From Hyphomicrobiales bacterium (GTDB lineage Bacteria; Pseudomonadota; Alphaproteobacteria; Rhizobiales; Beijerinckiaceae), in the NCBI GenBank assembly GCA_930633495.1, contig CAKNFJ010000001.1, positions 806,001-870,000 of the forward strand: 64,000 nt of DNA, in the 5' to 3' direction. The position numbers were made by a program, and so were the translations under genes. The notes beneath the pieces were generated by a model. The model searched no databases. It was given only the letters and a program-made list of their open reading frames with translations, and had not been told where the DNA came from. The first letter of the stretch is position 1. Each line of letters opens with the position of its first letter. This document shows, in pieces, positions 33,323 through 55,525 of this stretch.

Positions 33323-33329
33323 GGCCGGC

Positions 33330-34945: not shown

Positions 34946-35012
34946 GGGGCGTTCTTAGCCAATCAGGCTGCCGAGTTCATGGTGACAAAGGGTCACGCGG
35001 CTTCGATTTGAT

Positions 35013-36389: not shown

Positions 36390-36397
36390 TTCCCCGA

Positions 36398-40400: not shown

Positions 40401-41412
40401 CGTCGGACGGCGTGCCGCCGAAGGCCGGGCGCCCGTCGATCTCGCTGACGGTCCGGGCGATGGCGCGCGTCAGCCCAGCGACGGCCCATTCCGCCCCTAC
40501 CGTCGGCTTATGCGGAATCTCGACGCGCGGCGCCACGGTGCAGGATCCGGCGCGCAGATCGTCGCCGAACCAGGACACGACGAGCGACACGGTCCGCAGA
40601 TCGGGACAGAGCGCGACGAGATGGCCAATCGCGGTATCGACGTCGGAACCGCCATAGAGCTGGTGGCGGGTCAGGCTCTCGCTGACGCCGGGCTCGGGCT
40701 CGTGGCTCACGGAGCTCGTATCGTAGACGAACTCGCCCGCCCCCGGAATCAGCGAAACGGCGCGGATCATCCCGCCGAGCCCATCGACCGCCCGCACGAC
40801 CTCGAAATCGAACTGCGGCACGCGGTTGCCGTAATCAGCCAGCGCAAAACCTTCGAAGACGACATAGGCGAGGCCGCGATAGGCCGGCGCGTCGCCGCCC
40901 TCCTTCGCGACGATCAGCGGGTCCGGCTCCTGGGTCTCGTGGCCATGATGCAGGCGCATCGTGACGGTGGCGGTATCGAGCTCGCGGCCATCGACCCAGA
41001 TGCGCCGCACGAAGGCGATCGGCCCCTCGCAGAGGCCGATCGCGAGATTGGCGTGGTAGCTGTAAGTCGTCTCGTAGGTCTTCTTGGCGCGCCCGCCCTT
41101 GCCGCCGCTCTTGCTGCGCGTGATCGAGACGGCAATCTGCTCCTCGATGCGCGTCGCCCAGATCAGCTGCCCGCCGAGCCGCGCCCGGCCGTAGACGCGC
41201 GGGATCGCCGCGCCTTCCGTCGCCACGAGGCCGTTCACCTCCTTGAGGCGTGGCCCTTCGACGACCTTGTTGCCGCCGGAGCCGCCGAGCCAGCTCTGAT
41301 CGAGCGTCGCACCGGCGAGGCCGCCGAGCGCCTGGCCGATCGCGCCGCCGAGCGGCCCGCCCAGCATCGAGCCCAGCGCCGCACCGGCCACCTGGAACAG
41401 AAGCGTCGCCAT
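37495..41412 (-). CDS. GTA baseplate/tail-fibre hub protein (ORFg15, megatron-like)
   Basis: This is a 1305-residue protein at the distal end of the GTA cluster. The N-terminus is Gly/Ala-rich and hydrophobic (GSMLGGPLGGAIGQALGG). A central TIM-barrel, glycosidase-like domain (about residues 390-700, with TYAADWTEYG and GAIGIDFYPPLSDW) and a phage-tail-type beta C-terminal part follow, matching the GTA-TIM family. In Rhodobacter GTA the homologue forms the baseplate that contacts the recipient. The ATG at 41412 overlaps the NlpC gene stop (ATGA), so the gene is coupled to it. Confidence 0.93.
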   Translation of the reverse strand: MATLLFQVAGAALGSMLGGPLGGAIGQALGGLAGATLDQSWLGGSGGNKVVEGPRLKEVNGLVATEGAAIPRVYGRARLGGQLIWATRIEEQIAVSITRSKSGGKGGRAKKTYETTYSYHANLAIGLCEGPIAFVRRIWVDGRELDTATVTMRLHHGHETQEPDPLIVAKEGGDAPAYRGLAYVVFEGFALADYGNRVPQFDFEVVRAVDGLGGMIRAVSLIPGAGEFVYDTSSVSHEPEPGVSESLTRHQLYGGSDVDTAIGHLVALCPDLRTVSLVVSWFGDDLRAGSCTVAPRVEIPHKPTVGAEWAVAGLTRAIARTVSEIDGRPAFGGTPSDESVVALIRRLRVDYGLEVVLYPFLMMDIPAGNALPDPWSGGAGQPHYPWRGRITCDPAPGRPGSAEGTASAAAQIAAFVGTVEPADMSLAGGAVSCAKPGEWSYRRLVMHCAMLAQAAGGVEGFVVGSEMVGLTHLRGAAGYPMADHLAAIAQEVKTILPATTLTYAADWTEYGADVRDGGEDIDFPLDALWASPAIGAIGIDFYPPLSDWRDGAGHADAAIAQGPADLAYLRGRLTSGEAFDWYYADDAGRAAQARLPITDGAYGKLWLFRPKDLHGWWSNPHIRRAGGVETGATSFVPGAKPIWLTEIGVPAVDKGANAPHVFPDNRSAEGSFPPFSSGARDDLVQARGLEAILSGFDPSRPGFEDARNPVHPVSGIRMVDPARIVVWNWDARPFPAFPDLGGIWADGANFETGHWLNGRLEGTPVDRLVARVLADFGLPAADRIAIDGFVDGYVLDRPLSARQALEPLAQTFGFDAVMSAGRLRFEGRSGKVSRLLDQDDLVPDRDGEPFALRRSQETELPLELRLGFSDSESDYRNAAARSRRLGGAARREVAVETAIVTRGAEGQRLADQRLQEAWAARETLECTLSPRCLDLEAGDVVSLPVDGDRRLFRITRIADGPTRQISARAVEPAIYIGAGARSATRPPRTPPALPGRPLAVPLALPIAMAGPPALLSLAAFASPWPGPLAVWAADALGQFDVEAFVEMPSVVGETLSAFGPGPVWRTDRRNLLDVRLRGGVLSSVSPEAALAGANALALLGEDGEIEIVTAAEVALIGPRSFRLSGFVRGIGGSEAAAARDLPAGARVVVLDGAALALTTELSDIGRTRRYRVGPARHDVGEATMVEFERVVTGEALRPPSPVRPKAWRGEAGIRLSWIRRARIDADSWDLVEIPLGEEGERYEIRIWNGASIVHAEIVNVPEWLYPAGLELDGFGVPQQELTVSLAQLSATVGRGREWHGLIAVA

Positions 41413-41843
41413 CAGTCGGTCACTCCCGGAAAGGAAAAGGCATGGCTGAGGTGGCGCCGCCACCAGGGCGTCAGGGCCACCTCGGTGACGGCTGCCCCGT
41501 CATGGGCATGGATGATGCGGCCGAGCTCGCTCAGGATGGCGCAGTGCTTGGCCGGCAGATGCTCGCGCCAGCGGAAGAGCAGCACGTCGCCCGGCCGCTC
41601 GGCCCCGATCACGACCGGAACGAGATGGCGCATCGCCGCATCCGCCAGCGTTTCCCGCAGCAGGCTCTCGGCCCAATAGGGCGTGTAGGGCGGCGGTGCC
41701 TCGGGCTCCGGCCCGAGCAGGTCGCGCCAGACGCCCCGGACGAGACCGAGGCAGTCGCAACCCACTCCACGCAGCGAGGCCTGGTGATGATAGGGTGTAC
41801 CCAGCCAAAACCGGGCCGCCTCGACGATCTCGCCGCGCTTCAT
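41412..41843 (-). CDS. GTA NlpC/P60 peptidoglycan peptidase (ORFg14)
   Basis: This is a 143-residue cysteine peptidase expected to cut peptidoglycan during DNA entry. The catalytic Cys31 is in GCDCLGLVRGVW, and the His is in KHCAILSELG. The ATG at 41843 overlaps the upstream gene by ATGA, and its own stop overlaps the megatron start. The length and position equal ORFg14 of other GTAs. Confidence 0.93.
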   Translation of the reverse strand: MKRGEIVEAARFWLGTPYHHQASLRGVGCDCLGLVRGVWRDLLGPEPEAPPPYTPYWAESLLRETLADAAMRHLVPVVIGAERPGDVLLFRWREHLPAKHCAILSELGRIIHAHDGAAVTEVALTPWWRRHLSHAFSFPGVTD

Positions 41844-42721
41844 CGGAACAGGCTCCCGCCATCGAGCCGGCCGTCGCCGGGGCGGACGCCGCCGATGATG
41901 AAATCCATCGTCGGCATATGCGGGAAGCCGCGAAAATTGGCGCCGTTTCCGAACTTCGCCCGGCAGGTCGCGAAGCTCTTGTCGCAGCCGGGCGTGACGC
42001 TGAAGCCGTCGCCTGGCTGAATCGTCGCGGCCGGCGCCTGCCAGAGCTGGAAGATCGCCCGATCTCCCTCGCTGCCGTGGCGTTTCACCTCGGTCGCGAA
42101 GCCGGCATTGGGGCCGCTGGTGAAGACGAGACGCCCGCAGGTGAAATGCCCGTCCGGGTGGGAAGAGAGCCCGGATGCAGACAGGCTGAGGCGGCCGTCG
42201 CTGGCCTCGACATGCGAGGCGGCGGCAACGAGTGCGACAGTGCACCGGGCATCGCCGAGATCGGCCGAGCAGGAGCGCAGATAGAGCCGGCCCCGCTCTT
42301 CGTCGAAGGATCTGGCGAGGCTGCGGACCTCGGCGGTGAAGCCGAGTTCGCCGCGCCTGACTTCACCGATGAAGCCCTCCTCCAGCAGCAGCCTCTGCTC
42401 GGGAGCGGCCCAGTTGACCAGCCAGACGCGCACGCGCGCATCGTCGTAGAGGCCCCGCACGAGATCGGTTTCGTTGAGCCCGGAAGCGGCGAAGGCGCCG
42501 GCGACATCGCCGCCGCCGACGGCGAAGCCGAGTTCGGTCGTCATCTCCGCCGCCTCCAGCCCCGTCGCCGCCGCGCAGGTCAGGCCGTCGAAGGTGAGCG
42601 TTCGGTCGTGGTCGGTGAAGCCGAGCACCAGCCCGTCGCGGCGCGTCAGGCTCCAGCAATGGCACAGCGTCGTCGCACCGCCCTCGATATGGGCGGCAAG
42701 AGCGGCAGGGATATCGCGCAT
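41840..42721 (-). CDS. GTA distal tail protein, DUF2163/BR0599 family (ORFg13)
   Basis: This is a 293-residue phage-derived tail hub protein. The N-terminal TTLCHCWSLTRRDGLVLGFTDHDR segment and the C-terminal GCDKSFATCRAKFGNGANFRGFPHMP with its paired Cys are hallmarks of this family, in which the Cys cluster binds an iron-sulfur centre in the Rhodobacter structure. It follows ORFg12 by eight bases and overlaps ORFg14. Confidence 0.93.
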   Translation of the reverse strand: MRDIPAALAAHIEGGATTLCHCWSLTRRDGLVLGFTDHDRTLTFDGLTCAAATGLEAAEMTTELGFAVGGGDVAGAFAASGLNETDLVRGLYDDARVRVWLVNWAAPEQRLLLEEGFIGEVRRGELGFTAEVRSLARSFDEERGRLYLRSCSADLGDARCTVALVAAASHVEASDGRLSLSASGLSSHPDGHFTCGRLVFTSGPNAGFATEVKRHGSEGDRAIFQLWQAPAATIQPGDGFSVTPGCDKSFATCRAKFGNGANFRGFPHMPTMDFIIGGVRPGDGRLDGGSLFR

Positions 42722-42729
42722 GGCAGGCC

Positions 42730-43368
42730 TCAGGGAACGATCTCGACGACGGGAATGCGCGGGATCTCGCCAGCCTCGAAGGCGGAGAGATCGACCTCGA
42801 TCGCGTCGATGTCGAAGCGGACAGGCACGTCGAAGGCGAAGCCCGCCGTCACCGCGGCGCCCGGCGGCGGAATGGCGCCCGGGGCGAAGGTGACGAGCCC
42901 CGACGCCGGGTCGCAGGTGAAGTCCGCCTCGACCTGCTCGACCCCGCCGACGGCGATCCGGACCGTGCCCTCGCAGGGCTTGGCGATGGTTCTGCTATAG
43001 GCTGCGCCTCCGGAACCATAGGTCTTGCGGAGCTGGTAGACGGCAGTGATGCCGTCACCGGTGCCGATCGCCTGGTCCAGCGCCGTCGGCGTGCCGGAGG
43101 GCGCACAGCTCTTCCAGTCGAGCTGGTCGCGCCAGCGGAAACCGTAGAGCTTGCCGCGGCGCTCCTCGAAGAAGCTCACCACCACGGCCAGCGCATCGAA
43201 GCTGCGCACGCCGAGCCCGGCATCGTAGCGCCGCCGCGAATGGGCCCAGCGGCTATTGCGGACCTCGCGGCCGGAAGCGAGCGTGACGATCTGGGTCTGG
43301 CGCTCCGGACCGCCGCGCGCGCCCCGCGCCACATCGAGCGGAAAGCGCACCTCGTGGAAATCGGTCAT
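42730..43368 (-). CDS. GTA distal tail protein, DUF2460 family (ORFg12)
   Basis: This is a 212-residue distal tail protein. It begins FHEVRFPLDVARGARGGPERQTQIVTLASGREVRNSRWA and has FEERRGKLYGFRWRDQLDWKS, the conserved core of DUF2460/TIGR02217. It lies between the tape measure and ORFg13 with 8-11-base spacing, as in all RcGTA-type clusters. Confidence 0.94.
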   Translation of the reverse strand: MTDFHEVRFPLDVARGARGGPERQTQIVTLASGREVRNSRWAHSRRRYDAGLGVRSFDALAVVVSFFEERRGKLYGFRWRDQLDWKSCAPSGTPTALDQAIGTGDGITAVYQLRKTYGSGGAAYSRTIAKPCEGTVRIAVGGVEQVEADFTCDPASGLVTFAPGAIPPPGAAVTAGFAFDVPVRFDIDAIEVDLSAFEAGEIPRIPVVEIVP

Positions 43369-43379
43369 GGCGACCTCGC

Positions 43380-43973
43380 TCAGAGCGCGCGACCGCCGCG
43401 CGCCACGGCACGGGCGATTGCGGCGGAGACCTGCGCCTCGGAACGGCGGAAGCTGTCGGCATCGGGCGTCGAGACCTGGACGACGACGCTCAGCGGCCGC
43501 GCCGAGCCCCCGGCTGCACGCACGCCGAGCTTGCCGTCCGGCCCGCGCGACAGCGGCATGATCGCCTCCGCGCCGCGCTCCCCCATCAGGCCGAGGCCAC
43601 GCCCCGTCGGGAAATAGGAGGGCGAGGCGACGATGCCGCCTTCGGCGAAGGGCGCGACCGGCATGCTTGCCCCGAACGAACCGAACCCGCCGCCGGTGAA
43701 CAATCCGGTCAGCCCCTTCACGCCCGTCCCGATGAGGTCCGACAGCCCGGTCTGGAGCGGTTTCAGCGCCGTCTTCAACAGGCTGCTGGTCATCGAGCGG
43801 CCGACGCTCTGCAGCGTTTCCTCGAAGCGCTTGCCTTCGACGATACCGCGCGAGAAGGCGTTTACGATCGATTTACCGAAGTTTTCAGATGATTTGTTCA
43901 GAGATTGAGTCAGCGAATCCATCGTCCGCAGATCGGACAGGCGGACGGAATCGATCGGCTCGTCGCTAGCCAT
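43380..43973 (-). CDS. GTA tail tape measure protein (ORFg11)
   Basis: This is a 197-residue protein; the short length agrees with a short GTA tail. The N-terminal half is helical (SLTQSLNKSSENFGKSIVNAF), followed by Gly/Phe-rich GGGFGSFGASMPVAPFAEGG and the tail-protein motif FPTGRGLGLMGERGAEAIMPLSRG. It sits between the tail chaperone and ORFg12. Confidence 0.9.
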   Translation of the reverse strand: MASDEPIDSVRLSDLRTMDSLTQSLNKSSENFGKSIVNAFSRGIVEGKRFEETLQSVGRSMTSSLLKTALKPLQTGLSDLIGTGVKGLTGLFTGGGFGSFGASMPVAPFAEGGIVASPSYFPTGRGLGLMGERGAEAIMPLSRGPDGKLGVRAAGGSARPLSVVVQVSTPDADSFRRSEAQVSAAIARAVARGGRAL

Positions 43974-44009
43974 GGTGGCCCTCTTGAGAGATTGCTTGAA
44001 GACTCTGCA

Positions 44010-44207
44010 TCAGGCGTCGGGATAGGCGGCCATCAGCGCATCCAGGGCAGCGCGGTCGACGGCGATGCCGCGCGCTCCGCGATGCGCCTGCAGCGCCGCG
44101 GCGATCTCGCGCGGCGTCGCCGCCCAGAACTGCTCCGGCGGCCAGGCCAGCCGCCCGAGCCCGAAGGCCATCACATCGTTCCAGGGGAAAGCCGCCGGAG
44201 CTTTCAG
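44010..44207 (-). CDS. GTA tail assembly chaperone (ORFg10.1), probable CTG start
   Basis: This is a 65-residue frame, too short for routine calling. The only ATG (44171) would leave 53 residues beginning MAFGLGRLAW, but the conserved family start FPWNDVM-GLG extends upstream. In frame, the codons for KAPAAFPWNDV lead back to CTG at 44207, which overlaps the ORFg10 stop as CTGA. GTG at 44174 is the alternative. The body GLGRLAWPPEQFWAATPREIAAAL is diagnostic of the rcc01693/TIGR02216 chaperone family. Confidence 0.82.
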   Translation of the reverse strand: MKAPAAFPWNDVMAFGLGRLAWPPEQFWAATPREIAAALQAHRGARGIAVDRAALDALMAAYPDA

Positions 44208-44551
44208 CTTTCCGGCGGCTGCGGAGGGCGGTTGCCGCCGCCCTCCCCGAACGTGGCCTCGAGCAGAGCGATCGCGGCCTTGATCGCGCCGTTCAGCCCG
44301 CCGTCGAAGGAAAGGTCCGCCACCTCCTCGTCGCGGATCGCCCTGCCCGCCCCGCGCAGGCCGGCCGCGATGATCCGGACGATGTCGCGGGCCGAAAGCC
44401 GGCCGTCGACGAAGCGCTCGCCAAGCGCCGGCAGGCTGTCGACGGCGAAAGCCTGCTCCAACTCCGCCAGCGCCCCCAGCGTCAGCCGCATCGGCAGCGC
44501 CTCGCCCGCGACCATGAGAGCGGTCTCGCCACGGTGATGATTGACCATCAT
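44204..44551 (-). CDS. GTA protein ORFg10
   Basis: This is a 115-residue protein of the GTA gp10 family. It begins MMVNHHRGETALMVAGEALPMRLTLGALAELEQAF and has SARDIVRIIAAGLRGAGR. GAAGAGG lies just upstream; the second ATG at 44548 has the better spacing. It follows the major tail gene by seven bases and its TGA overlaps the CTG of the tail chaperone. In phages this pair forms a tail assembly chaperone couple. Confidence 0.88.
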   Translation of the reverse strand: MMVNHHRGETALMVAGEALPMRLTLGALAELEQAFAVDSLPALGERFVDGRLSARDIVRIIAAGLRGAGRAIRDEEVADLSFDGGLNGAIKAAIALLEATFGEGGGNRPPQPPES

Positions 44552-44558
44552 TGCCTCT

Positions 44559-44969
44559 TCAAAGCGCCGTGAAAGCGAGCAGGCCGGCCGATTCCAGCGA
44601 CAGGTCGAAGGTGACCTCGCCGGCATGGTCGCCGCGATATTCGAGGCTCGCGAGCTGGAAGGGCCCGGCGATCGTGCCGAATCCAGGCACGACGATCTGC
44701 CAATCCCGGATCGCGCCATCGAAAAAGAGCTGGCGCACCAACTCGTCCGACGCCTCATCCTTGAACACGCCCGAACCGCTGATCGCGGCGCGGCGCACAC
44801 CGGCCCCGGCCAGCAGTTCGCGCCAGCGCCCGGCCGATTCCGCGTGCGTCACATCGACCGTTTCGGCGTTGAAGGCGATCTGACGAGCCCGCAGGCCCGC
44901 CACGGTCACGAACGCGCCGGCACCATCCGCCGCCTTGAGCAGCAGATCCTTGCCCTTCTGTGCCGCCAT
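44559..44969 (-). CDS. GTA major tail tube protein (ORFg9)
   Basis: This is a 136-residue TP901-1-type major tail protein. It begins AAQKGKDLLLKAADGAGAFVTVAGLRARQIAFNAETVDVT and continues with WRELLAGAGVRRAAISGSGVF, the conserved core. It stacks as hexamers to form the tail tube. It lies 18 bases after ORFg8. Confidence 0.93.
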   Translation of the reverse strand: MAAQKGKDLLLKAADGAGAFVTVAGLRARQIAFNAETVDVTHAESAGRWRELLAGAGVRRAAISGSGVFKDEASDELVRQLFFDGAIRDWQIVVPGFGTIAGPFQLASLEYRGDHAGEVTFDLSLESAGLLAFTAL

Positions 44970-44987
44970 GCGGCGTCTCCTTTTCTG

Positions 44988-45398
44988 TCAGAGTGCTTCC
45001 GTGACGGCCCGGAATCGGAGCGTCACATGGCCGATTCCGCTGCGGGGCTCGCGGGCCAGCCGGCTGGACAGCCAGCGCAGATTGACGAGCGCGTGGCCCT
45101 CCAAGGCGAGTTCAGACTCGTCGAGCGCGGCGACGATCAACCCCGCGGCCGCGAGAGCCTGTCGCGACGAATTGCTCTGCCCCGCCCAGACGACCAGGCC
45201 GAATTCCTGCTCGCAGCCACGGTCGCTGCCGGTCGACCAGTCGCGCGCCTCGACCTCGCCATGGACGACGTAGAGCCCGCGCCCCGCGCGCGGCGCCTCG
45301 TCATGGATATGGCCGGGGCCGATCAGGTCCGTCAGCGCGGCATCTTCTTCCAGGCGAGCCTGAATCGCCGCCCGCAAGGCCAGGACTGCGCCGCTCAT
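44988..45398 (-). CDS. GTA tail terminator, DUF3168 family (ORFg8)
   Basis: This is a 136-residue protein. Features are ALRAAIQARLEEDAALTDLIG at the start, PYLVVHGEVEARDWST-like core (here LYVVHGEVEARDWSTGSDRG) and a C-terminal LRFRAVTEAL. DUF3168 proteins cap the tail tube at the head-tail junction. Its ATG overlaps the ORFg7 stop by ATGA. Confidence 0.92.
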   Translation of the reverse strand: MSGAVLALRAAIQARLEEDAALTDLIGPGHIHDEAPRAGRGLYVVHGEVEARDWSTGSDRGCEQEFGLVVWAGQSNSSRQALAAAGLIVAALDESELALEGHALVNLRWLSSRLAREPRSGIGHVTLRFRAVTEAL

Positions 45399-45733
45399 GG
45401 CTTCACCTCCTCGACCAGGCAGACGAGGCGGCGACGCGAGCCGTCCGGATCGGCAACGCTGCGAATATCGAAGATGCGCGCGCCGTCACGCAGCCGCCTG
45501 CCGGCGTCGAGATCGGCACGCCAGCGCAACGTCACGCGGCAGGAGCCGGTCTGTTCCGGGCGTCCCTGGCGCCATTGTTCGGTGCCGGAGAGCCATTCGA
45601 CCTGCGCCCAGAAGGCCGCGACCGTCTCGAATGTCTGGATCGCGCCGCCCAGACCGTCCGGGACGGAGACAGGCGCCTCCAGCACGAGCCGGCGCCTCAA
45701 CCTGCCGATGGCCGGAAAGGTTACCTCCGCCAT
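45395..45733 (-). CDS. GTA head-tail adaptor/closure protein (ORFg7)
   Basis: This is a 112-residue phage head-closure protein (SPP1 gp16 / rcc01689 type) with IGRLRRRLVLEAPVSVPDGLGG at the N-terminus, AFWAQVEWLSGTEQWRQGRPE in the middle and FDIRSVADPDGSRRRLVCLVEE at the end. Three bases separate it from ORFg6, and it overlaps ORFg8. Confidence 0.92.
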   Translation of the reverse strand: MAEVTFPAIGRLRRRLVLEAPVSVPDGLGGAIQTFETVAAFWAQVEWLSGTEQWRQGRPEQTGSCRVTLRWRADLDAGRRLRDGARIFDIRSVADPDGSRRRLVCLVEEVKP

Positions 45734-45736: not shown

Positions 45737-46306
45737 TCACAGCCTTCCGCGGCGGAACGGCGCCACGAGCGCCGCGATGGCAGCGGGCAACGCCCGCGCA
45801 TCACGGCTGGCGACATCGCCACGCTCCTCGAACCAGCGTGCCGCCAGCCTCAAAACGGCCTGACGCAGCGGAGCGGGCACGGCCGCGGCCGTCGCTCCGT
45901 AACCGGCCGTCACGTCGATTTCGATCGCGCCGTGATCGCGGCCGATCTCGGGAACTTCCCCGCGCAGGCGGATCAGGGGTGGATCGGCGCCCCTGTCCAG
46001 CGCCAGCGCCGCCTCCGCCACTGGTTGCGGCTCGCCGAGCAGGTCATAGACCCGGGCCTCGTCGATCCGCGCGACCGGCGACAGCGGCAGCCTGATCTCG
46101 CCATTGGCCGGCCAGCGATCGAGCACGATCCGCCAGGGCTGTTCGATCAGGCAGCGCCCCGCCGCAGCTTCGATCATCAGCCGCGCGGCGGTGATCAGCG
46201 TGGCGAGCAATTCGTCCTCGTCATTCTGGTCGAGGCGCAGGAATTGCCGGGCCTCGGCGAGCGAGACCGGTTCCGCCATCGGCGGAGCCAGGGCGAGCGG
46301 CGTCAT
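45737..46306 (-). CDS. GTA head-tail connector (ORFg6)
   Basis: This is a 189-residue phage gp6/HK97-connector-like protein. The N-terminal PVSLAEARQFLRLDQNDEDELLATLITAARLMIEAAAGRCL is the family signature, and a C-terminal helical region ends with APLRQAVLRLAARWFEER. GGAAGGGG lies upstream of the ATG at 46306. Normally the capsid gene (ORFg5) would be directly upstream; here two plus-strand protease genes intervene. Confidence 0.92.
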   Translation of the reverse strand: MTPLALAPPMAEPVSLAEARQFLRLDQNDEDELLATLITAARLMIEAAAGRCLIEQPWRIVLDRWPANGEIRLPLSPVARIDEARVYDLLGEPQPVAEAALALDRGADPPLIRLRGEVPEIGRDHGAIEIDVTAGYGATAAAVPAPLRQAVLRLAARWFEERGDVASRDARALPAAIAALVAPFRRGRL

Positions 46307-46366
46307 ATTCGTCCCCTTCCAAGGATCAGATGCGGGTTCATTTGCGCAGCGCGGCGCGCTATCAGC

Positions 46367-46382
46367 CTCCTTCGGAAAGGAG
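46367..46382 (+). promoter_or_regulatory. Hairpin sequestering the ribosome-binding site of protease 1
   Basis: CTCCTT-CGGA-AAGGAG forms a perfect 6-bp stem whose 3' arm is the Shine-Dalgarno sequence of the protease gene, six bases before its ATG at 46389. Such a stem could limit translation. Chance self-complementarity to an AAGGAG is possible. Confidence 0.4.
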
Positions 46383-46388
46383 CGCCCG

Positions 46389-47165
46389 ATGCGCATCGCC
46401 AACTGGATCGTCGTCGCCGCGCTCGGCGGCATGGCCTGCCCGCTCGCTGCGCCGCCCGCACAAGCGGTCGTCGGCGGCAGCGAGGGCGGACCGTCCGCCA
46501 ATTCGACTTTGATGGTGCTCAACGCCCGCGGCGGGGTCTGCAGCGGGATCGTGCTTTCGGCGCGGGCCATCCTCACCGCGGCTCATTGCGCCGCCGGCGG
46601 AACGGAACTGCGCATCCATTGGCGCGAGCAGGGCGAACCCGTCCTGATCGCGCCGGCTTCGGTCAGCCTGCATCCGGAATTCGATGCGGGAGCGATCCGC
46701 AGCCGCCGGCGCTCGATCGACCTCGCACTGATCCGGCTCGCGGAGCCCCTGCCCGGCCGCTTCACCCCTGCAGCCCTGATCGACGGGCCGCTGCCGCGCG
46801 CGGGAAGCTCCGTCACCCTCGCCGGTTACGGGGTCGCCCGCGAAAGCGACGCACGGAGCACGGGCACCTACCGATCCGCCACGCTGACGGCGGTCGAACC
46901 CTATGGTCCGGGCCGCATCCTGCTCTGGGCGGCCGATCCGGCCGGCGGCGGCAAGCAGCCCGGCGCCAGCGCCTGCCAGGGCGATTCCGGCGGGCCGATC
47001 TTCGGCGATGGCGGCGTCAGCGCCGTGACCAGCTGGTCGACCGGGCCCAAGGGCAAGAGCTGCGGCCTGCTGACCCAGGGCATCCTGGTGGCGCCGCAAC
47101 GAGGATGGGTCGATACGACGCTGTCTCAGTGGGGCGAGGCGGCGCGCTGGTCGCAGGGCCGGTGA
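46389..47165 (+). CDS. Secreted trypsin-like (S1) serine protease 1, inside the GTA cluster
   Basis: This is a 258-residue exported protease. The signal peptide (1-26) ends at AQA, and the mature chain starts VVGGSEGG, like the VVGG activation site of trypsins. The triad is His66 (LTAAHC), Asp111 (SIDLALIRL) and Ser200 (GDSGGP); Cys pairs suit periplasmic or extracellular folding. A ribosome-binding site AAGGAG is present within a hairpin. It is on the strand opposite to the GTA genes, between ORFg6 and ORFg5, and is followed by a related protease gene 59 bases later. It is not a known GTA structural component. Confidence 0.9.
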   Translation: MRIANWIVVAALGGMACPLAAPPAQAVVGGSEGGPSANSTLMVLNARGGVCSGIVLSARAILTAAHCAAGGTELRIHWREQGEPVLIAPASVSLHPEFDAGAIRSRRRSIDLALIRLAEPLPGRFTPAALIDGPLPRAGSSVTLAGYGVARESDARSTGTYRSATLTAVEPYGPGRILLWAADPAGGGKQPGASACQGDSGGPIFGDGGVSAVTSWSTGPKGKSCGLLTQGILVAPQRGWVDTTLSQWGEAARWSQGR

Positions 47166-47224
47166 AAACACTGGACTGTGCCTCGCCACCCCATAGATTG
47201 ATCAGCCGTCCATCGGTTCACGTC

Positions 47225-48070
47225 ATGATCCTGCGCTCGCTCTCTGCTCTTGCATTCACGTTCCTCGCCGCCGTCGCGGCACAGCCCGCCCGTGCCGTCG
47301 TCGGCGGCACCGACTCGCGCGACGCTCATGGCGCCCGTGCCTGGACCGTTCGGGTCGAGACCAGCCGCGGCGAGCTCTGCTCGGGCGCGGTGATCGCGCC
47401 CGAGATCGTGCTGACGGCGGCGCATTGCCTGATGGGCGGCGGCTCGATCAGCGTCGTCAGCCTCGACACCCGTTTCCGGGCGCGCCGGCAGCTGGTCGTC
47501 GCGGTGCTGCCGCATCCGAGCTTCGTGCCCGGCACGACGCCACGCACCCAGCCAGGCACCGATCTCGCACTGCTGCGCCTGGCGCAGCCGTTGCCGGGCG
47601 ACATCGAGCTGCTGACTCTTGGCGGCGGCCTCTGGCAGGGCGAGACCGTCACCATGGCGGGCTTCGGCCTCTCCGCCGAGAACAACAAGAGCACCGCCCG
47701 GCGCCTGCGCGAGACCCCGCTGCTCAATGCCGGCAATTACACGACCCAGAACACGGTCAAGGTCGCCGTCGACATCGCGGCGCGTGGCGAGGCACCGGGC
47801 GCCGGCGCCTGCCGGGGCGATTCCGGCGGGCCGGTGCTGCGCGGCTCGCCGCGCTCGCGAGACCTCGTCGGCATCGTGAGCTGGTCGAGCGGGCCGCTCA
47901 ATACGCGGGCACGGCGCATCTGCGGTGGCTTCACCGCGATCACGCCGGTCAGCGAGCACCGGAGCTGGATCTCCGAAGGCAGCACGCGGCTGCTGACGTT
48001 CGGTAGCGAAGCGCCGCCGGACGAAACGGCCCAGCCGCGAGCCGCCTTCAGCTGGTGGTTTTCGCGCTGA
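47225..48070 (+). CDS. Secreted trypsin-like (S1) serine protease 2, inside the GTA cluster
   Basis: This is a 281-residue exported protease. The signal peptide (1-24) ends near ARA, and the mature start is VVGGTDS. The triad is His67 (LTAAHC), Asp113 (GTDLALLRL) and Ser200 (GDSGGP). It aligns along its length with protease 1, and both active-site Ser fall at the same residue number, so the pair probably arose by duplication. It carries an extra Pro/Ala-rich tail of about 25 residues. No clear ribosome-binding site precedes the ATG at 47225. It converges on the capsid gene. Confidence 0.88.
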   Translation: MILRSLSALAFTFLAAVAAQPARAVVGGTDSRDAHGARAWTVRVETSRGELCSGAVIAPEIVLTAAHCLMGGGSISVVSLDTRFRARRQLVVAVLPHPSFVPGTTPRTQPGTDLALLRLAQPLPGDIELLTLGGGLWQGETVTMAGFGLSAENNKSTARRLRETPLLNAGNYTTQNTVKVAVDIAARGEAPGAGACRGDSGGPVLRGSPRSRDLVGIVSWSSGPLNTRARRICGGFTAITPVSEHRSWISEGSTRLLTFGSEAPPDETAQPRAAFSWWFSR

Positions 48071-48078
48071 TGAGACCT

Positions 48079-48202
48079 GGAGCATTTCCATGGTTCTCCG
48101 AACCGCGAAAATGCTCCAGATCCTTATTTTATGGCATGTTCGCTGGCGCGGACCTTCGGTTCTTCACGCGAACCGGTGTCCACTTCGCTTGAAAATGCCT
48201 CA
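48079..48202. repeat. GAGCATTT-type composite repeat at the capsid gene end
   Basis: GGAGCATTTCC ... AAAATGCTCC (48079-48118) is a hairpin related to the element at 24060-24120. It is followed by CACGCGAACCGGTGTCCACTTCGC and TTGAAAATGCC, a sequence type common in Rhizobiales intergenic repeats. It occupies the space between protease 2 and the expected capsid stop codon at 48200-48202, and the annotated capsid frame runs through it. Confidence 0.7.
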
Positions 48203-49448
48203 GACCGCGAATTTCAGCCCCTTTGATCGCGGCGAAGTCCTGAACGCCGCCGCCGACGCGCTTGGTCGTGTAGAACAGGACATAGGGCTTGGCGGAGTAG
48301 GGATCGCGCAGGATGCGCACGCCGGCACGGTCGACGACGAGATAGCCGCGCCGGAAATCGCCGAACGCGATCGAGACCGCGTTGTTGGCGATGTTGGGCA
48401 TGTCTTCCGCCTCGACCAGCGGGAAGCCGAGCAAGGTCGCCGGCGCACCGGCGGAGGCCGGGGGCTGCCAGAGATAATGCCCCGTGCTGTCCTTGAACTT
48501 GCGGATTGCGGCCTGGGTCTTCCGGTTCATGACGAAGGAGGCGTTCTGGCGATAGCCGGCCTTCAGCGCATAGACGAGATCGACCAGGATATCCGAAGGG
48601 TTGGAGCCAGCGAAGGCGCCGGCGACGCCGGTGTTGAGCACGCCGATATTGCCCCAGCTCCAGCTGGCATCCGCAACGGTCGGATAGGCGAGGAAGCCCT
48701 TGGGCTTGTCGACGCCGTCGCCGGTGACGAAGGCCGCCCCCTCCTGCTCCGCGAAGGCGCTCTCGACCTCCTCGGCGATCCACTGATCGATGTTGACGAT
48801 CGCATCGTCCAGCAAGGTCTGCGTGGCGGCCGGCATGGCGTAGAGTTCCATGGCGGGGAAGGACAACTCCGTCAGAACGGGCGAGCCGGTCTGCGGCCGC
48901 GCCGCCGCCTCGGCCACCCAGCCGGAGGCCGGCCCCGTCGCCGAGAATGCCTTCTTGTAGGTGCCGGACGAGATCGTCCTCACGGTCGCGAGCGAGCGAA
49001 TCGGCGAGACATTGGCGAGCCGGCGCAGAATCTCGCCCTCGACCGTCGACGGCGCCAGATAGCCGCCGTCCGGGCCGGAGCCGGCCGACAGCGCCTTGGC
49101 TTCGAGCCGCTTCAACCCGCCGGCTTCGCCGGTGCGGACATAGGCCGCGAAGGCGGCCTTGTGCTCCGCGACGAGCGGATCGCGGGCGGGAGCGTCCTGA
49201 CCGAGCGCCGGACGGCTGCGTTCCAGCGTGATCCGGTCGATGCGGCGCATGGTGTCGTCGAGCGCGGCATCGATCCGGGTGAGCTTCTCCTCGGTGAGGG
49301 GATCGGTGCCGCTGCGAGCCTCGATCTCGGTGAGGCGCTCGTCATTGGCCGAGCGGTAGCTTTCCAGCGTATAGCGCAGATCCTCGAAGGCGAGCGCGAG
49401 ATCGGCGCCCGCGGCCTTGGTCTCCGGAACGGCATGAGAGTGGTTCAT
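48129..49448 (-). CDS. GTA HK97-type major capsid protein (ORFg5), C-terminus frameshifted
   Basis: The open frame is 439 residues. A helical scaffold-like delta region (about 1-110) precedes the HK97 fold (KALSAGSGPDGGYLAPSTVEGEILRRL onward; GFPLVEAEDMPNI; VLFYTTKRVGGGVQDFAAIK). The family ends soon after QDFxAIK with a short KxLKFA-type tail. Here a one-base shift at the AAAGGGG run (48218-48224) would give AIKGLKFAV and stop at 48200; the actual frame reads on for 24 unrelated residues through a repeat element. It is the shell protein that packages host DNA. Confidence 0.9.
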   Translation of the reverse strand: MNHSHAVPETKAAGADLALAFEDLRYTLESYRSANDERLTEIEARSGTDPLTEEKLTRIDAALDDTMRRIDRITLERSRPALGQDAPARDPLVAEHKAAFAAYVRTGEAGGLKRLEAKALSAGSGPDGGYLAPSTVEGEILRRLANVSPIRSLATVRTISSGTYKKAFSATGPASGWVAEAAARPQTGSPVLTELSFPAMELYAMPAATQTLLDDAIVNIDQWIAEEVESAFAEQEGAAFVTGDGVDKPKGFLAYPTVADASWSWGNIGVLNTGVAGAFAGSNPSDILVDLVYALKAGYRQNASFVMNRKTQAAIRKFKDSTGHYLWQPPASAGAPATLLGFPLVEAEDMPNIANNAVSIAFGDFRRGYLVVDRAGVRILRDPYSAKPYVLFYTTKRVGGGVQDFAAIKGAEIRGLRHFQAKWTPVRVKNRRSAPANMP

Positions 49449-49468: not shown

Positions 49469-49975
49469 TCAGACGAATGCGGGCGCGCGGCAGGCCGCCT
49501 TGACGGCGCTGATCCGGGCCTGCGGCAGCATCGGGAAGGTCACGACCGACACTTCCCAGAGGTCGACGCGCTCGAGCCGGCGCAGGCCCGTGCGCGGCTC
49601 GGTCCGCGCCCTTTGGGGGCGGAAGCCGATCGACAGGCCGTCGATGGCGCCCTCCCGCATCAGCGCGTGGATTTCGCGGGCCCGCGCGACGGCGAGCGCC
49701 AGCCGGCCACGGACGAAGAGGCCGCGGCTGTCCTCGACCAGGCTGAGCCAGCGGCCGAGCGGCTCGGCCGGATCATGCTGCCAGAGCAGCTTGACGCCGG
49801 AGGGGCCGCGCCGGGCCAGGGTGTCGCGAAAGGCGCCGGGCTCGACCACATCCTTGCCGAGGTCGGGGACGCGAAAGAGGCTGGCATAGCCTTCGAACAC
49901 CCCGTCGGGCGCGATGCGCGAAGGCTGCAGCGGCAGAAGCTTGGCCTCCAGCGGCGGGCGCGATGCGGCCCTCAT
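49469..49975 (-). CDS. GTA HK97-type prohead protease (ORFg4)
   Basis: This is a 168-residue S78-type serine protease that trims the capsid delta domain. The catalytic His is in KLLWQHDPAEPLG and the Ser in IDGLSIGF. The N-terminus SRIAPDGVFEGYASLFRVPDLGKDVVEPGAF is the family signature. The ATG at 49975 has GGGGAGGG upstream and overlaps the stop of the small upstream gene (ATGA). The capsid gene follows after 20 bases. Confidence 0.93.
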   Translation of the reverse strand: MRAASRPPLEAKLLPLQPSRIAPDGVFEGYASLFRVPDLGKDVVEPGAFRDTLARRGPSGVKLLWQHDPAEPLGRWLSLVEDSRGLFVRGRLALAVARAREIHALMREGAIDGLSIGFRPQRARTEPRTGLRRLERVDLWEVSVVTFPMLPQARISAVKAACRAPAFV

Positions 49976-50151
49976 CGGCCACCCTCCCCGTCCTTGCCGC
50001 CTTGCGGCGGCCCGCTCTCCAGCCTCGCCAGATTGCGGACGAACCGGCTGAACGTGTCCGGCTTCAGGTGGCCGGGCCGGGCCTTGGCCGGCTGAGACCG
50101 GCCGGCACCCGGCCGGTTCGACGGAGGCTTCGCCTCGCGACTGCCCTTCAT
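49972..50151 (-). CDS. Small basic protein encoded between GTA portal and protease genes
   Basis: This is a 59-residue frame below the usual calling cutoff. It starts at ATG 50151 with GAGGGGG upstream, overlapping the stop of the 66-residue gene, and its own TGA overlaps the prohead protease ATG. The chain is Pro/Arg/Gly-rich with one amphipathic segment, DTFSRFVRNLARLESG. Tight coupling on both sides argues that it is real. I recognise no family. Confidence 0.68.
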   Translation of the reverse strand: MKGSREAKPPSNRPGAGRSQPAKARPGHLKPDTFSRFVRNLARLESGPPQGGKDGEGGR

Positions 50152-50348
50152 GGTTGGTCCCCCTCATGGCGTGCGTTGAAACGGTTGAGCTCGCGGACGA
50201 AGTCGTCGAAGCGGCGATTGGCCTCGGTAAGCTCGCGCAGGACGAGCCAGGCGAGCACGGATGCGCTCGCCGCCCAGAGCAACAGGCCGAGATGGCCGAC
50301 ATCGGCGCGGCCGACGAAGGCCGCGACGATCTGATCGAGCATGTTCAT
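50148..50348 (-). CDS. Small single-helix membrane protein (ORFg3.5 position)
   Basis: This is a 66-residue protein, MNMLDQIVAAFVGRADVGH then a transmembrane helix LGLLLWAASASVLAWLVL and a charged tail with NRRFDDFVRELNRFNARHE. AAGGAG lies six bases before ATG 50348. It overlaps the portal gene (ATGA) and the following small gene. The position matches ORFg3.5 of RcGTA. The role is unknown. Confidence 0.75.
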   Translation of the reverse strand: MNMLDQIVAAFVGRADVGHLGLLLWAASASVLAWLVLRELTEANRRFDDFVRELNRFNARHEGDQP

Positions 50349-51526
50349 GGCCGCTCCTTTCCGGAGGCGCGCCGGCCATAGCCGACCGCCTCGCGCTTCT
50401 CGTCGGGATCGAGGAAATCCGCCGCGCCGAGGCGCCGCCAGAGCGACTCGCGCTCCTCGGCCAGCGCCTCGACCGCATCGAGATCGGGCTCGAGTGTGAG
50501 GTCGTCGCCGAAGGCGGGGCCGAGCCATTGCGCCAGCGATTGCGCCGTGCGCTTCACCAGCGGGATCACGGCCTGGCGCCAGAGCGCGCGATTGGCCTCG
50601 GCGAAATTGGCATGGGTATTGTCGCCGGGCAGGCCGAGCAGCAGCGGCGGCACGCCGAAGGCGAGCGCGATCTCGCGCGCCGCGACGCCCTTGGCGGCAA
50701 CGAAATCGAGCTCGGCCGGCGTCAGGGACAGGGGTTTCCAATCCAGTCCGCCTTCGAGCAGCAGCGGCCGGCCGGCATTGCGGGCGCCCTGGAAGGAATC
50801 CTCCAGCTCCTGCTTCAGCCGCTCGAACTGCGCCTCGGTCAGCGTCGCGCCTTCCGGCCCGTCATAGACCAGCGCGCCGGAGGGGCGCGCGGCATTGTCG
50901 AGCAGGGCCTTGTGCCAGCCGCTCGCAGCGTTGTGGATGTCGAGCGCGGCAGCCGCCGCCTCGATCGGCGACAGGCCGTAATGGTCGTCGACCGGATGGA
51001 ACAGCGTCAGATGCAGGATCGGCGGCACCTCGCCCTCATCCTGCCGGAAACGCACCGTGTCGCCCCCGACGGTATAGTCATAGGCTTCCGGCCAGCCCTC
51101 GCGCCCCGGCACGACGCGCATCCGGTCGGGCCGCAGCGCATAGAGTTCGCGCGGCTCGCGGCCGGTGCTCACCGCCTCGACATAGGCGTTGCCGGCCACG
51201 AGCAGATGGCCGAACAGCATCTCGCGGAAGGCGATGCCGCCCTGGCGCGGATTGGGCCGCTCGATCAGCGCCAGCGCAGGATGCTCCGGCACCTCGCGGG
51301 CGGCGGTTTTCGCAACCAACGGCAGCTGGGCCGCCGCCTCGGCGATCAGGCGCACGCAGCGATGCACGACCGGGTTGCGTTCATAGCCCTCTCGCGACAG
51401 GGCGACATAGTCGCGCGGCGTCCAGACGGCCCTGCCGGTTTCATGCAGGGCGATAAGCGGCCCGACGCGCGAGCGCTTCTGGTCCGGCGCGGCTGGGCCG
51501 CGCAGGTTGCGAAGGAAATCGAACAT
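50345..51526 (-). CDS. GTA portal protein (ORFg3)
   Basis: This is a 393-residue HK97/lambda-type portal that forms the DNA channel of the head. Conserved segments are YERNPVVHRCVRLIAEAAAQLP, HLLVAGNAYVEAV, LYALRPDRMRVVPG and VPPLLLGLPGDNTHANFAEANRALWR. The ATG at 51526 is chosen from the family start MFDFLRNL. A REP-like repeat (51552-51643) separates it from the terminase, unusual inside a GTA cluster. Confidence 0.94.
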   Translation of the reverse strand: MFDFLRNLRGPAAPDQKRSRVGPLIALHETGRAVWTPRDYVALSREGYERNPVVHRCVRLIAEAAAQLPLVAKTAAREVPEHPALALIERPNPRQGGIAFREMLFGHLLVAGNAYVEAVSTGREPRELYALRPDRMRVVPGREGWPEAYDYTVGGDTVRFRQDEGEVPPILHLTLFHPVDDHYGLSPIEAAAAALDIHNAASGWHKALLDNAARPSGALVYDGPEGATLTEAQFERLKQELEDSFQGARNAGRPLLLEGGLDWKPLSLTPAELDFVAAKGVAAREIALAFGVPPLLLGLPGDNTHANFAEANRALWRQAVIPLVKRTAQSLAQWLGPAFGDDLTLEPDLDAVEALAEERESLWRRLGAADFLDPDEKREAVGYGRRASGKERP

Positions 51527-51551
51527 GGAGGTCTCGCTTTTCTGACCAACC

Positions 51552-51643
51552 GTCATGCTCGGGCTTGACCCGAGCATCTCGGAAACCAGTGTCTTCTCGT
51601 CCAGGAATTCTCGGGTCGAAGCTTCGCCTCGCCCGAGAATGAC
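51552..51643. repeat. REP-like double-hairpin repeat inside the GTA cluster
   Basis: GTCATGCTCGGGCTTGACCCGAGCATCTC and a second hairpin TTCTCGGGTCGAAG-CTTCGCCTCGCCCGAGAA-TGACG, same family as at 20099 and 55526. It lies between the large terminase stop and the portal start, where it could reduce read-through. Confidence 0.82.
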
Positions 51644-51656: not shown

Positions 51657-53033
51657 CTACATCCCCCGCACCCGCGGCCTGCCCCGGGCTGCGAGCATCA
51701 GATGAGTCAGCGCCCAGACGAGAGCATCGAGCCGGTCGGGCGAGCGGCCGCCTTCGAGGCCCCCGGGGCCGAACGAACACATCTCGTCTTCCAGCGCTGG
51801 GAAGGTGCCGGCATGGCGCACGCGGTTCTGGGCGTAGAGCGCGGCCACCGGCTCGGCGCGAAGATACTTGCCGCGCGTCGCTCGGACGGACACGACCGGG
51901 ACGCCGCCATCGACCTCGCGGATGATGCTTTCCACCATCTCCCCGCCCTGGTTGACCTCGACGACCAACGCATCTGCCTCATGGCGGCGATAGAGCGCGA
52001 CGGCCATCTGCGCCCATTCCTGCGGCCGCGCGCCGGCGAGCGTCGCGTCCTCCAGCACATGGCCGATGCCGTCGCGGTCGATACCAGCGGCAACGAGGCC
52101 GCAGCGGTCGGCCCGCTGCGATGACGAGGCCGGCGGATCGACGGCGACGACAATGCGTGCAAGCGGCGGAGCCTGCCGCTCGCGGGACGCTTCGATCATC
52201 GCCCGCGTCCAGAGCGCGTCCGGGCTCTCCTCGACGATCTCGCCGTCGAGTTCCTGCCGGCCGAGCCGCGTCCCGCCATAGGTTTCGGTGACGGTGCGAA
52301 CGAACTCCGCGGCGAGGTTGAAGCGGTTGTCCCGCGTCTTCGCCCGGCTGACCGCGACATGCGGCTCGACCAGCAGGCGCTTCACCAGCGGCACCGGACG
52401 CGGCGTCGTCGTGACGATCTGGCGGGGATGATCGCCCAAGCGCAGGCCGAATTGCAGCATGTCCCAGCACTCCTGAAGATTGGGCCATTTCGCCAGCTCG
52501 TCGGACCAGGCGGCGCCGAATTGCGGGCCGCGCAATCCTTCCGGGTCTTCGGCGGAGAAGACCTGCGCGATCGCGCCGTTCGGCCATTGCAGGCGGCGTA
52601 ACGAAGGCTGCCATGTCGGGCGCTCCCAACGCGTATGGATCGCGAGCAGCCCGGAGACGCCTTCGATCATCACGTCGCGCACCTGTCCCTGCGTCTCGCC
52701 GATGAGGGCGATCCGCCCGGTCCCAGCGTCAGCGAAGGGCGGATGGCCCAGCGCCATGCCCTTCACCCATTCGGCGCCGGTGCGGGTCTTGCCGGCGCCG
52801 CGCCCGCCGAGGACGAGCCAGATCGGTTTTGCAGGCTCGGAGGGCAGCTGGTCGGGCCTCGCCCAGACCGTCCACTCGGCGAAGACGGTCTCGACAATCT
52901 CAGGCGGCGCCGTCTCCGCCAGCTTCCTGAGCACCCTCACCCGCTTCTTCGGCGGCAAGCGCCTCAAGGCGTCGAGCAAGCTCCTGACGGAGTTGTGCAA
53001 CATGTCGCAGACCGTCAGCGGCGGAAAGTTCAT
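51657..53033 (-). CDS. GTA large terminase (ORFg2)
   Basis: This is a packaging motor of about 458 residues. Walker A is in WLVLGGRGAGKTRTGAEWV, Walker B in AAWSDELAKW, and the coupling motif in IVTTTPRPV. The nuclease acids are in VVAVDPPASS, LVVEVNQGG and SPDRLDALVWALTHL. The start is uncertain: ATG 53033 or 53003 (MLHNSVRSLL) or a GTG near 52940. Any of these overlaps the small terminase gene, by 134 bases for 53033. None has a strong ribosome-binding site. Confidence 0.9.
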   Translation of the reverse strand: MNFPPLTVCDMLHNSVRSLLDALRRLPPKKRVRVLRKLAETAPPEIVETVFAEWTVWARPDQLPSEPAKPIWLVLGGRGAGKTRTGAEWVKGMALGHPPFADAGTGRIALIGETQGQVRDVMIEGVSGLLAIHTRWERPTWQPSLRRLQWPNGAIAQVFSAEDPEGLRGPQFGAAWSDELAKWPNLQECWDMLQFGLRLGDHPRQIVTTTPRPVPLVKRLLVEPHVAVSRAKTRDNRFNLAAEFVRTVTETYGGTRLGRQELDGEIVEESPDALWTRAMIEASRERQAPPLARIVVAVDPPASSSQRADRCGLVAAGIDRDGIGHVLEDATLAGARPQEWAQMAVALYRRHEADALVVEVNQGGEMVESIIREVDGGVPVVSVRATRGKYLRAEPVAALYAQNRVRHAGTFPALEDEMCSFGPGGLEGGRSPDRLDALVWALTHLMLAARGRPRVRGM

Positions 53034-53301
53034 CGGTCTGCTTGTCCCTCTTCCCGGCTTGCGGCTCCTCGATCGCGACCAGTTCGCGCACCGTCCGGGC
53101 CAGCGTCGCCAGCGCCTTCGCGTCGGCCTCGCTCGCCGTCGAGCCCTTCGGCAGGTCGGCCAGATGGTCCTCATGCGCGTCGAGCTGGCGCTTGGCGGCG
53201 CGCCAGAGCTGCCCCACCACCGCCTTGCGCGAGACGGCGGGCCGCTTCGGCTTCTGCGCCGCGGGCACAATCTCCGGTGGTTCGCTGTGATCCTCGGCCA
53301 T
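52900..53301 (-). CDS. GTA small-terminase-like protein (ORFg1)
   Basis: This is a 133-residue, highly charged, helical protein. The central part (TASEADAKALATLARTVRELVAIEE) and the C-terminal helix (LRHVAQLRQELARRLEALAAEE) fit the small terminase/ORFg1 type found at the head of GTA clusters. The ATG at 53301 has GAGAAGG upstream. It is the first GTA gene. Its ends are basic/Pro-rich and acidic. The family assignment rests mainly on position and the helix pattern. Confidence 0.75.
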   Translation of the reverse strand: MAEDHSEPPEIVPAAQKPKRPAVSRKAVVGQLWRAAKRQLDAHEDHLADLPKGSTASEADAKALATLARTVRELVAIEEPQAGKRDKQTDELSAADGLRHVAQLRQELARRLEALAAEEAGEGAQEAGGDGAA

Positions 53302-53327
53302 GCACCTTCTCCGATGCGGGCACGAAA

Positions 53328-53356
53328 AAGCCGCCGGCTGGGGAGCGCGGCGGCTT
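53328..53356 (-). terminator. Intrinsic-terminator-like hairpin in the GTA leader
   Basis: On the minus strand AAGCCGCCG and CGGCGGCTT pair (9 bp) around an 11-base loop, and the 3' arm runs into TTTTT. It lies 27 bases before the ORFg1 ATG. It could end the LOG-gene transcript, but a promoter candidate lies between that gene and this hairpin, so GTA transcripts would also have to pass it. Confidence 0.7.
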
Positions 53357-53386
53357 CGTTCGGGCAGATTTCGTGAGCGTTCCCGA

Positions 53387-53415
53387 TCTCTAGCGGATCA
53401 GCGTCACGATGTCAA
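53387..53415 (-). promoter_or_regulatory. Candidate GTA promoter
   Basis: Reading the minus strand, TTGACA (53415-53410) is a perfect -35 followed after 17 bases by TAGAGA (53392-53387), a weak -10. The -35 overlaps the inverted repeat TGTC-TT-GACA. A transcript would start near 53380 and carry a leader of about 79 bases with the terminator-like hairpin. Confidence 0.5.
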
Positions 53416-53457: not shown

Positions 53458-54039
53458 TCAGGCCTGTTCCTTTTCGATCCATTTGTAGGTCGCGGCCGGG
53501 ACGTAATTCTCCATCCGGTCGAGCAGCGTGGCGGGTTCGGTATCGGTCATCGCCATGGCGCGGTGGCTCTGCTTGAGGAAACCTGCCTCGACGGTCCGGT
53601 CGAGGAAGGTCGCCAGCGGGTCGTAGAAGCCCGCCACATTGAGCAACCCGAGCGGCTTGGCATGGATGCCGAGCTGGCCCCAGGTCCAGATCTCGAAGAG
53701 CTCCTCGAAGGTACCGATGCCGCCCGGCATGGCGATGAAGCCATTCGACAGCTCCGCCATCCGCGCCTTGCGCGTGTGCATGGTGTCGACGATTTCGAGC
53801 CGGGTCAGCCCGATATGGCCGACCTCCTTGTCGCGCAGGGCCTTGGGAATCACGCCATGGACCTCACCGCCGGCCTCCAGCGCCGCATTGGCGACGATGC
53901 CCATCAGGCCGACGGCGCCACCGCCATAGACCAGCGTCAGGCCACGGCGCGCGATTTCGGCGCCCATGGCGCGGGCGCCGGACGCATAGACCGGGTCATT
54001 GCCCGGATTCGAACCACAGAAGACGCAAACAGATCTCAT
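53458..54039 (-). CDS. LOG-family nucleoside monophosphate phosphoribohydrolase
   Basis: This is a 193-residue protein of the LONELY GUY/YvdD family, which cleaves N-glycosidic bonds of (cytokinin-like) nucleotide monophosphates. It has [10 protein letters not shown] at the start, [12 protein letters not shown] and the catalytic [16 protein letters not shown]. It was once misnamed lysine decarboxylase. The ATG at 54039 overlaps the dipeptidase stop (ATGA), so both genes form one operon. Confidence 0.93.
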
Positions 54040-55418: not shown

Positions 55419-55525
55419 GACAGCCATCGGAAGCGATTCAGGTGACATCATCATGGCAAGCGCCCGGGCGGGCGTCAGCCCATATTCGCGCATAGCGCCC
55501 CGGTTCGTCTGTCCTAAAACGAGCC

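Follow-up and report, generated by a model that had tools for sequence, protein, structure and literature searches.

A conserved antisense insertion of predicted secreted S1A serine protease genes between the capsid and connector genes of RcGTA-like clusters

The genes of a GTA cluster are, in most accounts, read in one direction as a single late operon. In the stretch of DNA analysed here (64,000 nucleotides from a Hyphomicrobiales bacterium, hereafter the window), two protease genes, P1 and P2, lie antisense between the capsid gene g5 and the connector gene g6 of an RcGTA-like cluster (Table 1). The best named protein matches of the window were to Bosea, hence the host is termed Bosea-like. 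The locus raises the question whether such proteases serve the GTA particle, act on incoming particles from the recipient side, or serve the cell. The initial annotation had taken them for a moron-type cargo pair and an accessory module of the GTA; our analysis of related loci indicates that they are most likely cell proteases and not particle parts.

Gene order at the junction and properties of P1 and P2

The initial annotation had described two mutually related S1 proteases with intact triads and signal peptides on the plus strand between g5 and g6, which lie on the minus strand, and each of these points was upheld. P1 and P2 are separated by 59 bp. The names of g2 to g15 follow in part general usage, and the tail genes g8 to g15 are presumed to be such from their position. 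The order of head and tail genes is shared with RcGTA-like head-tail clusters as given in the available text of PMC10883770, whereas in the families studied here one or two protease genes stand antisense between g5 and g6. An inverted repeat of 23 nt lies in the P2-g5 gap (48074-48122), with CTTATTTTAT after it on the plus strand; this repeat was not among the calls of a terminator scan of the region. The 3' end of g5 (48129-48250, minus strand) runs on into interspersed-repeat-like sequence: pieces of capsid residues 401-438, and of that part alone, match four other places in the genome, and the capsid matches of relatives mostly stop near residue 410-415.

Table 1. Features of the GTA cluster and its flanks in the window
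Feature	Coordinates	Strand	Details
Flank past g15: CcmF, CcmE, TPR/CcmI-like, histidine kinase, response regulator	31343..37066	-	
GTA tail part, g8 to g15	37495..45733	-	ORFs; order conserved in related loci
g6, head-tail connector	45737..46306	-	PF05135
g6-P1 head-to-head gap	46307..46388	.	82 bp between start codons
P1, predicted secreted S1A serine protease	46389..47165	+	258 aa; ATG 46389 to stop 47165
P2, predicted second secreted S1A serine protease	47225..48070	+	281 aa; ATG 47225 to stop 48070
P2-g5 tail-to-tail gap	48071..48128	.	58 bp between stops
g5, major capsid protein	48129..49448	-	PF05065
g4, prohead protease	49469..50176	-	PF04586
g3, portal	50345..51577	-	PF04860
g2, large terminase	51657..53054	-	PF03237/PF17289
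Flank past g1: LOG-family protein, M20 peptidase	53458..55493	-	

Both proteins matched the PF00089 Trypsin model (76.7 bits for P1 and 98.1 bits for P2, with a curated Pfam cut-off of 20.6). Their Pfam content was limited to this match and the overlapping PF13365, i.e., a single domain each. P1 and P2 share 34% identity over 215 aligned columns (E 3e-29), and both catalytic triads are intact (H66/D111/S200 in P1). In the alignment of the protease family, a set of 195 members that leaves out seven weak rows of family code f35 and contains two f20 paralogs, the triad His57-Asp102-Ser195 was found in this order in all members, and it was complete in 47 of the 47 members taken from GTA-less loci. 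Asp189 was present in none of the 195, the column placed by alignment to PDB trypsins and by the usual numbering being occupied by Gly (174), Ser (17), Ala (3) or Gln (1). By this mark they are not trypsins in the strict sense; their specificity would be chymotrypsin/elastase-like and not for Arg/Lys. The leaders, delimited by eye, have A-x-A ends (...PPAQA in P1 and ...PARA in P2) and are directly followed by VVGG, the residues that, by alignment, begin the mature chains of chymotrypsin-fold proteins; a propeptide is absent. Signal peptidase itself would thus create the active N-terminus, and so no zymogen step would be needed.

The double beta-barrel chymotrypsin fold of S1A peptidases was found; the AlphaFold2 model of P2 reached a pLDDT of 80.6 and a pTM of 0.80, with a low-confidence C-terminal tail. 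The MEROPS S1A/PF00089 family shares this fold, as in the structures of cathepsin G, chymase, elastase and kallikrein, but the P1/P2 family differs in that it lacks Asp189, has a leader abutting the mature N-terminus, is bacterial and is located in a GTA cluster. No bacterial chain occurred among the 50 matches given in the VIA structural list, which excludes nothing. Viral Foldseek matches were general S1-type folds and nothing more specific, and in NCBIfam neither protein matched an equivalog above its cut-off.

Distribution of the insertion and its fate after GTA loss

Among the 149 genomes of the GTDB family sample, 113 matched P1 and 101 matched the capsid at E 1e-3. Stricter lists, typed by hand, leave out the weak protease matches in genomes G039 (7.8e-24) and G040 (3.7e-20), most second protease copies (two were kept), second capsids, and capsid rows weaker than about 1e-92; weaker second copies in the family sample are covered as far as they are among the matches listed. 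By these lists, 89 genomes had a GTA-type capsid and 80 of them also had the protease. Wherever both lay on one contig the protease was antisense to the capsid gene, at a distance of no more than 3.3 kb (79/79, median gap 208 bp), and in the eightieth genome the two were on different contigs. The nine capsid-bearing genomes without protease all belong to genus codes g17 and g42. Moreover, 31 of the 149 genomes had the protease without a GTA-type capsid and 29 had neither, so that 31 of 60 capsid-less genomes carry it (33 if the weak matches of G039 and G040 are included).

In a survey of g5-g6 junctions, as proposed in the initial annotation, the insertion was found well beyond the strain, and a strain-specific insertion is ruled out by the family-wide and multi-genus occurrence. 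Named carriers among the best 80 of 314 loci were Bosea, Chelatococcus, Pseudochelatococcus, Microvirga, Methylobacterium, Methylorubrum, Enterovirga, Alsobacter, Ancylobacter and others, and the insertion is also carried by family codes f20 and f36. In the order sample, the P1 profile matched 71 of 397 genomes at 1e-20 (f1, 19; f20, 12; f36, 18; f50, 5; f35, 17) and the capsid matched 263 of 397 at 1e-60; in the class sample, 4 of 289 genomes matched at 1e-25, all from f1. The f35 matches were weak, and where both places were listed (for example G182, G223, G287 and G376) protease and capsid were on separate contigs or hundreds of kb apart. That g5 and g6 are adjacent in other GTAs, as had been claimed, was confirmed in all 20 control clusters examined. 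Of these, 18 came from families that gave no P1 profile match and two from f35; in each, the two genes lie on the same strand with 101-528 bp between match ends. In the parts of the literature that were available, which hold few subscription journals, no account of a g5-g6 GTA protease was found, the available text of PMC9836097, PMC11409702 and PMC9765227 included.

Some loci varied in their protease content and spacing. GTA clusters can be split by one antisense protease gene or by two, depending on the locus, and two f20 loci (L212 and L213) mark a third protease family member elsewhere, beyond the tandem pair. In four Methylobacterium loci (L112, L122, L123 and L124) the spacings are enlarged, and the capsid gene lies over 1 kb away from P2. 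Three f35 loci (L209, L210 and L214) carry two weakly related S1 protease genes near each other, with GTA genes absent within the fetched 20 kb; the inserted pair may derive from a relative of these.

The protease tree roughly tracks the named genera. Rows for the trees were thinned at 92% identity (202 of 239), and FastTree warned of long branches. A P1 tree of 136 rows, 101 with and 35 without GTA genes in the locus, requires 13 or more changes of GTA state, eight of which are forced by well-supported branches. For the protease state, three changes are required in the capsid tree (81 chosen rows), and two of them are forced in the same way. The clusters of g17 and g42 (L215-L222), with 84-172 bp between the g5 and g6 match ends, form one capsid clade nested among protease-bearing rows, i.e., a single clean loss of the protease with the GTA cluster kept. 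Taken together, the protease and capsid trees fit a gene acquired once or twice and passed on vertically thereafter. The g5-g6 insertion is real, old and conserved across genera.

What happens to the proteases when the GTA disappears is most clearly seen in Bosea psychrotolerans (L090) and Bosea OK403 (L092). In both, the whole GTA is gone on both sides and P1 and P2 remain, with the response regulator, kinase and Ccm genes on one side and the LOG and M20 genes on the other, i.e., between the outer flanks of the GTA in the window. The two strains are close relatives and probably represent one loss event. In a further locus (L106), P1 and P2 lie between the same outer flanks together with small scraps of g6 and g5. 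Because of such two-sided deletions loss is the likely direction of change, which the numbers of changes in the tree cannot by themselves separate from gain.

Among 41 GTA-less loci (defined by the lack of any GTA query match at 1e-10 in the DNA retrieved, which was short for some loci; six weak or paralogous loci left out and some genomes counted twice), a response regulator of at least 78% identity is located upstream of P1 in 26. It is not beside P1 in the other 15, two of which have less than 2 kb of upstream sequence, and the ancestral site is therefore not established for those 15. The two-component pair and the cytochrome c maturation genes (31343-37066, minus strand, in the window) adjoin P1 in many GTA-less genomes. 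Nineteen of the 31 genomes with protease only were fetched, and three of these retain some GTA genes; with G039 added, GTA genes were found in four of 20 loci (L067, L069, L071 and L078). Three loci, L078 (G080), L069 (G031) and L071 (G039), hold a decayed or incomplete GTA with tail genes beside the protease; of the capsid only scraps are left in G080, and no match was found in G031 and G039. In f36, 14 of 18 protease-bearing genomes had no capsid match at 1e-60, these being all 14 of genus code g78.

Relaxation of selection after GTA loss was not clear. The GTA-less Bosea strains, a single close pair, gave dN/dS values of 0.16 for P1 and 0.13 for P2, compared with 0.09-0.30 and 0.12-0.31, respectively, in Bosea with GTA. 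For Methylobacterium P1 the values were 0.21-0.48 without and 0.22-0.45 with GTA.

Promoters and transcription across the junction

In Bosea, the g6-P1 gap contains a conserved promoter-like element directed toward P1 (GGGTTCA, 18 nt, CTATC; GGGTT...CGCGCTAT, read from alignments). The element is also present in GTA-less Bosea, where the similarity fades right after the g6 start codon. A general sigma-70 consensus scan around the P1-g6 gap found no promoter. Outside Bosea the gap is poorly conserved, in part owing to its shorter length there. The start codons of g6 and P1 are no more than 23-27 bp apart in seven Microvirga loci read by hand, and the gaps share a AGGATCCT- or AGGAATCCT-like stretch that could be a two-way ribosome-binding site. 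This distance is too short for a g6 promoter between the genes, so the g6 and P1 transcripts must either run over each other on the two strands or each begin within the other gene; the g6 promoter may lie inside P1. The gap alignment covered 8 of 11 loci for Bosea, 8 of 9 for Microvirga and 13 of 14 for Methylobacterium with GTA, the rest having failed the motif rule. Automatic g6-P1 start calls were noisy (16 negative values in a set of 56 loci; in a set of 96 loci, the smallest distances were motif mis-picks), and hand-read gaps alone were used for the distances.

The junction presents the gene arrangement of a noncontiguous operon, an opposite-strand gene nested between operon genes. Examples are menE-menC-MW1733-ytkD-MW1731 and ith-1/tha-1 of phage 80alpha which, as far as the available text of the reports shows (PMC7154746, PMC11087260), likewise have one or more opposite-strand genes nested in an operon and an apparent promoter of their own. 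In the available account of 80alpha the product of the antisense gene inhibits an immune protein, whereas here predicted exported proteases are encoded. Since P1 and P2 lie on the opposite strand within a late operon, with the 5' end of P1 near that of g6, transcription toward g6-g15 from upstream should cross P2 and P1 antisense, to which the short Microvirga gaps lend indirect support, and with such a layout protease and GTA expression are expected to exclude each other. From this layout we infer mutual exclusion: in most cells the proteases would be on and the GTA off, and in the few particle-making cells the proteases would be silenced.

The genome to which the window belongs encodes a protein with DUF6456, the domain of GafA/GafY. 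According to the available text of PMC11150451, transcription of the Caulobacter GTA involves antitermination by GafZ, with read-through of terminators over a 14-kb cluster. This precedent, together with the DUF6456 protein, makes read-through across P2 and P1 plausible. The interval between the LOG gene and g1 (53325-53415, minus strand) holds TTGACA-N16-CTAGAG, directly followed by a G+C-rich hairpin with T5 (found by eye and with a simple pattern); the hairpin is also present in locus L085. The element resembles a promoter followed by a leader terminator, of the kind that goes with antitermination. A consensus scan upstream of g1 found neither promoter nor terminator.

Possible roles of the proteases

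The reading that we prefer, and hold with moderate confidence, is that P1 and P2 are vertically inherited, exported, chymotrypsin/elastase-like cell proteases encoded antisense in the GTA operon, probably as a noncontiguous operon with mutually exclusive transcription. As exported single-domain S1A endopeptidases they would serve the cell, acting in the periplasm or outside on a GTA-independent substrate. The gene would have entered the g5-g6 junction in an ancestor of the carrier families, on one or two occasions, with vertical descent since. Within the family the protease is nevertheless associated with the GTA (80 of 89 genomes with capsid, compared with 31 of 60 without); such an association is expected if the function is partly GTA-linked, but shared ancestry alone can also yield it.

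A possible alternative, to which we give less credence, is that a cell protease with its own promoter is simply lodged at the junction and g6-g15 are transcribed from a separate promoter, the two being uncoupled in both directions. Vertical inheritance and retention without the GTA account for the observed pattern with no need of coupling, and the promoter-like element toward P1 in Bosea, GTA-less strains included, is consistent with this. However, the gap in the seven Microvirga loci is too narrow to hold a g6 promoter, and the antisense place has been held through many genera, although the one clean loss shows that it can be vacated.

The retention of the proteases after GTA loss would also suit a role in non-producers. 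They might be exported by such cells and act at the envelope, with arriving GTA or phage particles, or the receptors of these, as targets; in producers they would be silenced antisense, after the fashion of tha/ith in the staphylococcal prophage 80alpha. The layout resembles the noncontiguous operon that, in the available text of PMC11087260, couples immunity to the prophage state, and the association of protease and GTA in the family points the same way. Such a recipient or immunity factor is unlikely, however, as whole GTA-less groups in the sample keep the protease (the g78 genomes of f36) and matches to defence models are weak (LmuA, E 1.6e-5 for P2 and 0.0018 for P1), perhaps reflecting general S1 similarity. 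A more elaborate form, in our estimate quite improbable, makes the pair the protein arm of a producer/recipient switch: non-producers would export the proteases and so tune the envelope against or for GTA or phage particles, antisense read-through would silence them in producers, and GTA-less lineages would keep the recipient arm.

That the proteases form an accessory module of the GTA, aiding particle release, maturation or receptor processing in producers, now appears very doubtful. Their exact and long-kept place inside the structural cluster, seen in every one-contig case, speaks for such a module, as do the trypsin-like domains of LypA/LypC, which according to the available text of PMC13236601 are needed for GTA-mediated lysis in Caulobacter. 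On the other hand, P1 and P2 lie on the strand opposite to the GTA operon, at least eight GTA-state changes occurred among protease bearers with no clear relaxation of dN/dS, and one GTA-bearing clade (g17 and g42) is without the protease. An accessory gene should be lost or decay with the GTA; among the 60 capsid-less genomes, 31 keep the protease and 29 do not. The survival at the original site after two-sided GTA loss, the 13 GTA-state changes (eight forced), the intact catalytic residues and the lack of clear dN/dS relaxation thus leave the accessory module unsupported.

LypA and LypC, of the CARD-NLR-like LypABC system of Caulobacter, are likewise trypsin-like peptidases tied to an alphaproteobacterial GTA, and as described in the available text of PMC13236601 they are multi-domain proteins (CARD and ATPase-like; endonuclease) required for GTA lysis. 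In contrast, P1 and P2 consist of a leader and one domain, and they outlive the GTA. With 258 and 281 aa and no fused CARD, ATPase or endonuclease domain, they are not members of the LypA/LypC group. The word "periplasm" is absent from the main text of PMC13236601 on LypA/LypC, as far as that text was available.

Three further candidates were set aside. Moron-type cargo, as initially proposed, found no backing: a search of 50,697 phage records at E 1e-5 returned nothing for P1, and PHROGs gave no match for P1 and a weak "protease" match for P2 (E 0.00048). Membership in a defence system was rejected, the weak LmuA and Avs1b profile matches being read as general S1 similarity, and so was a role in releasing the RcGTA tailspike, for which the available text of PMC13420450 gave no proteolytic step.

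These loci carry the caution that a conserved position within a GTA is, on its own, no evidence of a GTA function. Whole families bear a non-particle gene antisense in the middle of the GTA operon, and this gene often outlives the GTA. The g5-g6 protease loci are thus a natural experiment on what goes and what stays when a GTA decays, and they offer a candidate case in which the making of GTA particles would be coupled, through antisense transcription, to an enzyme that is secreted or acts at the envelope.
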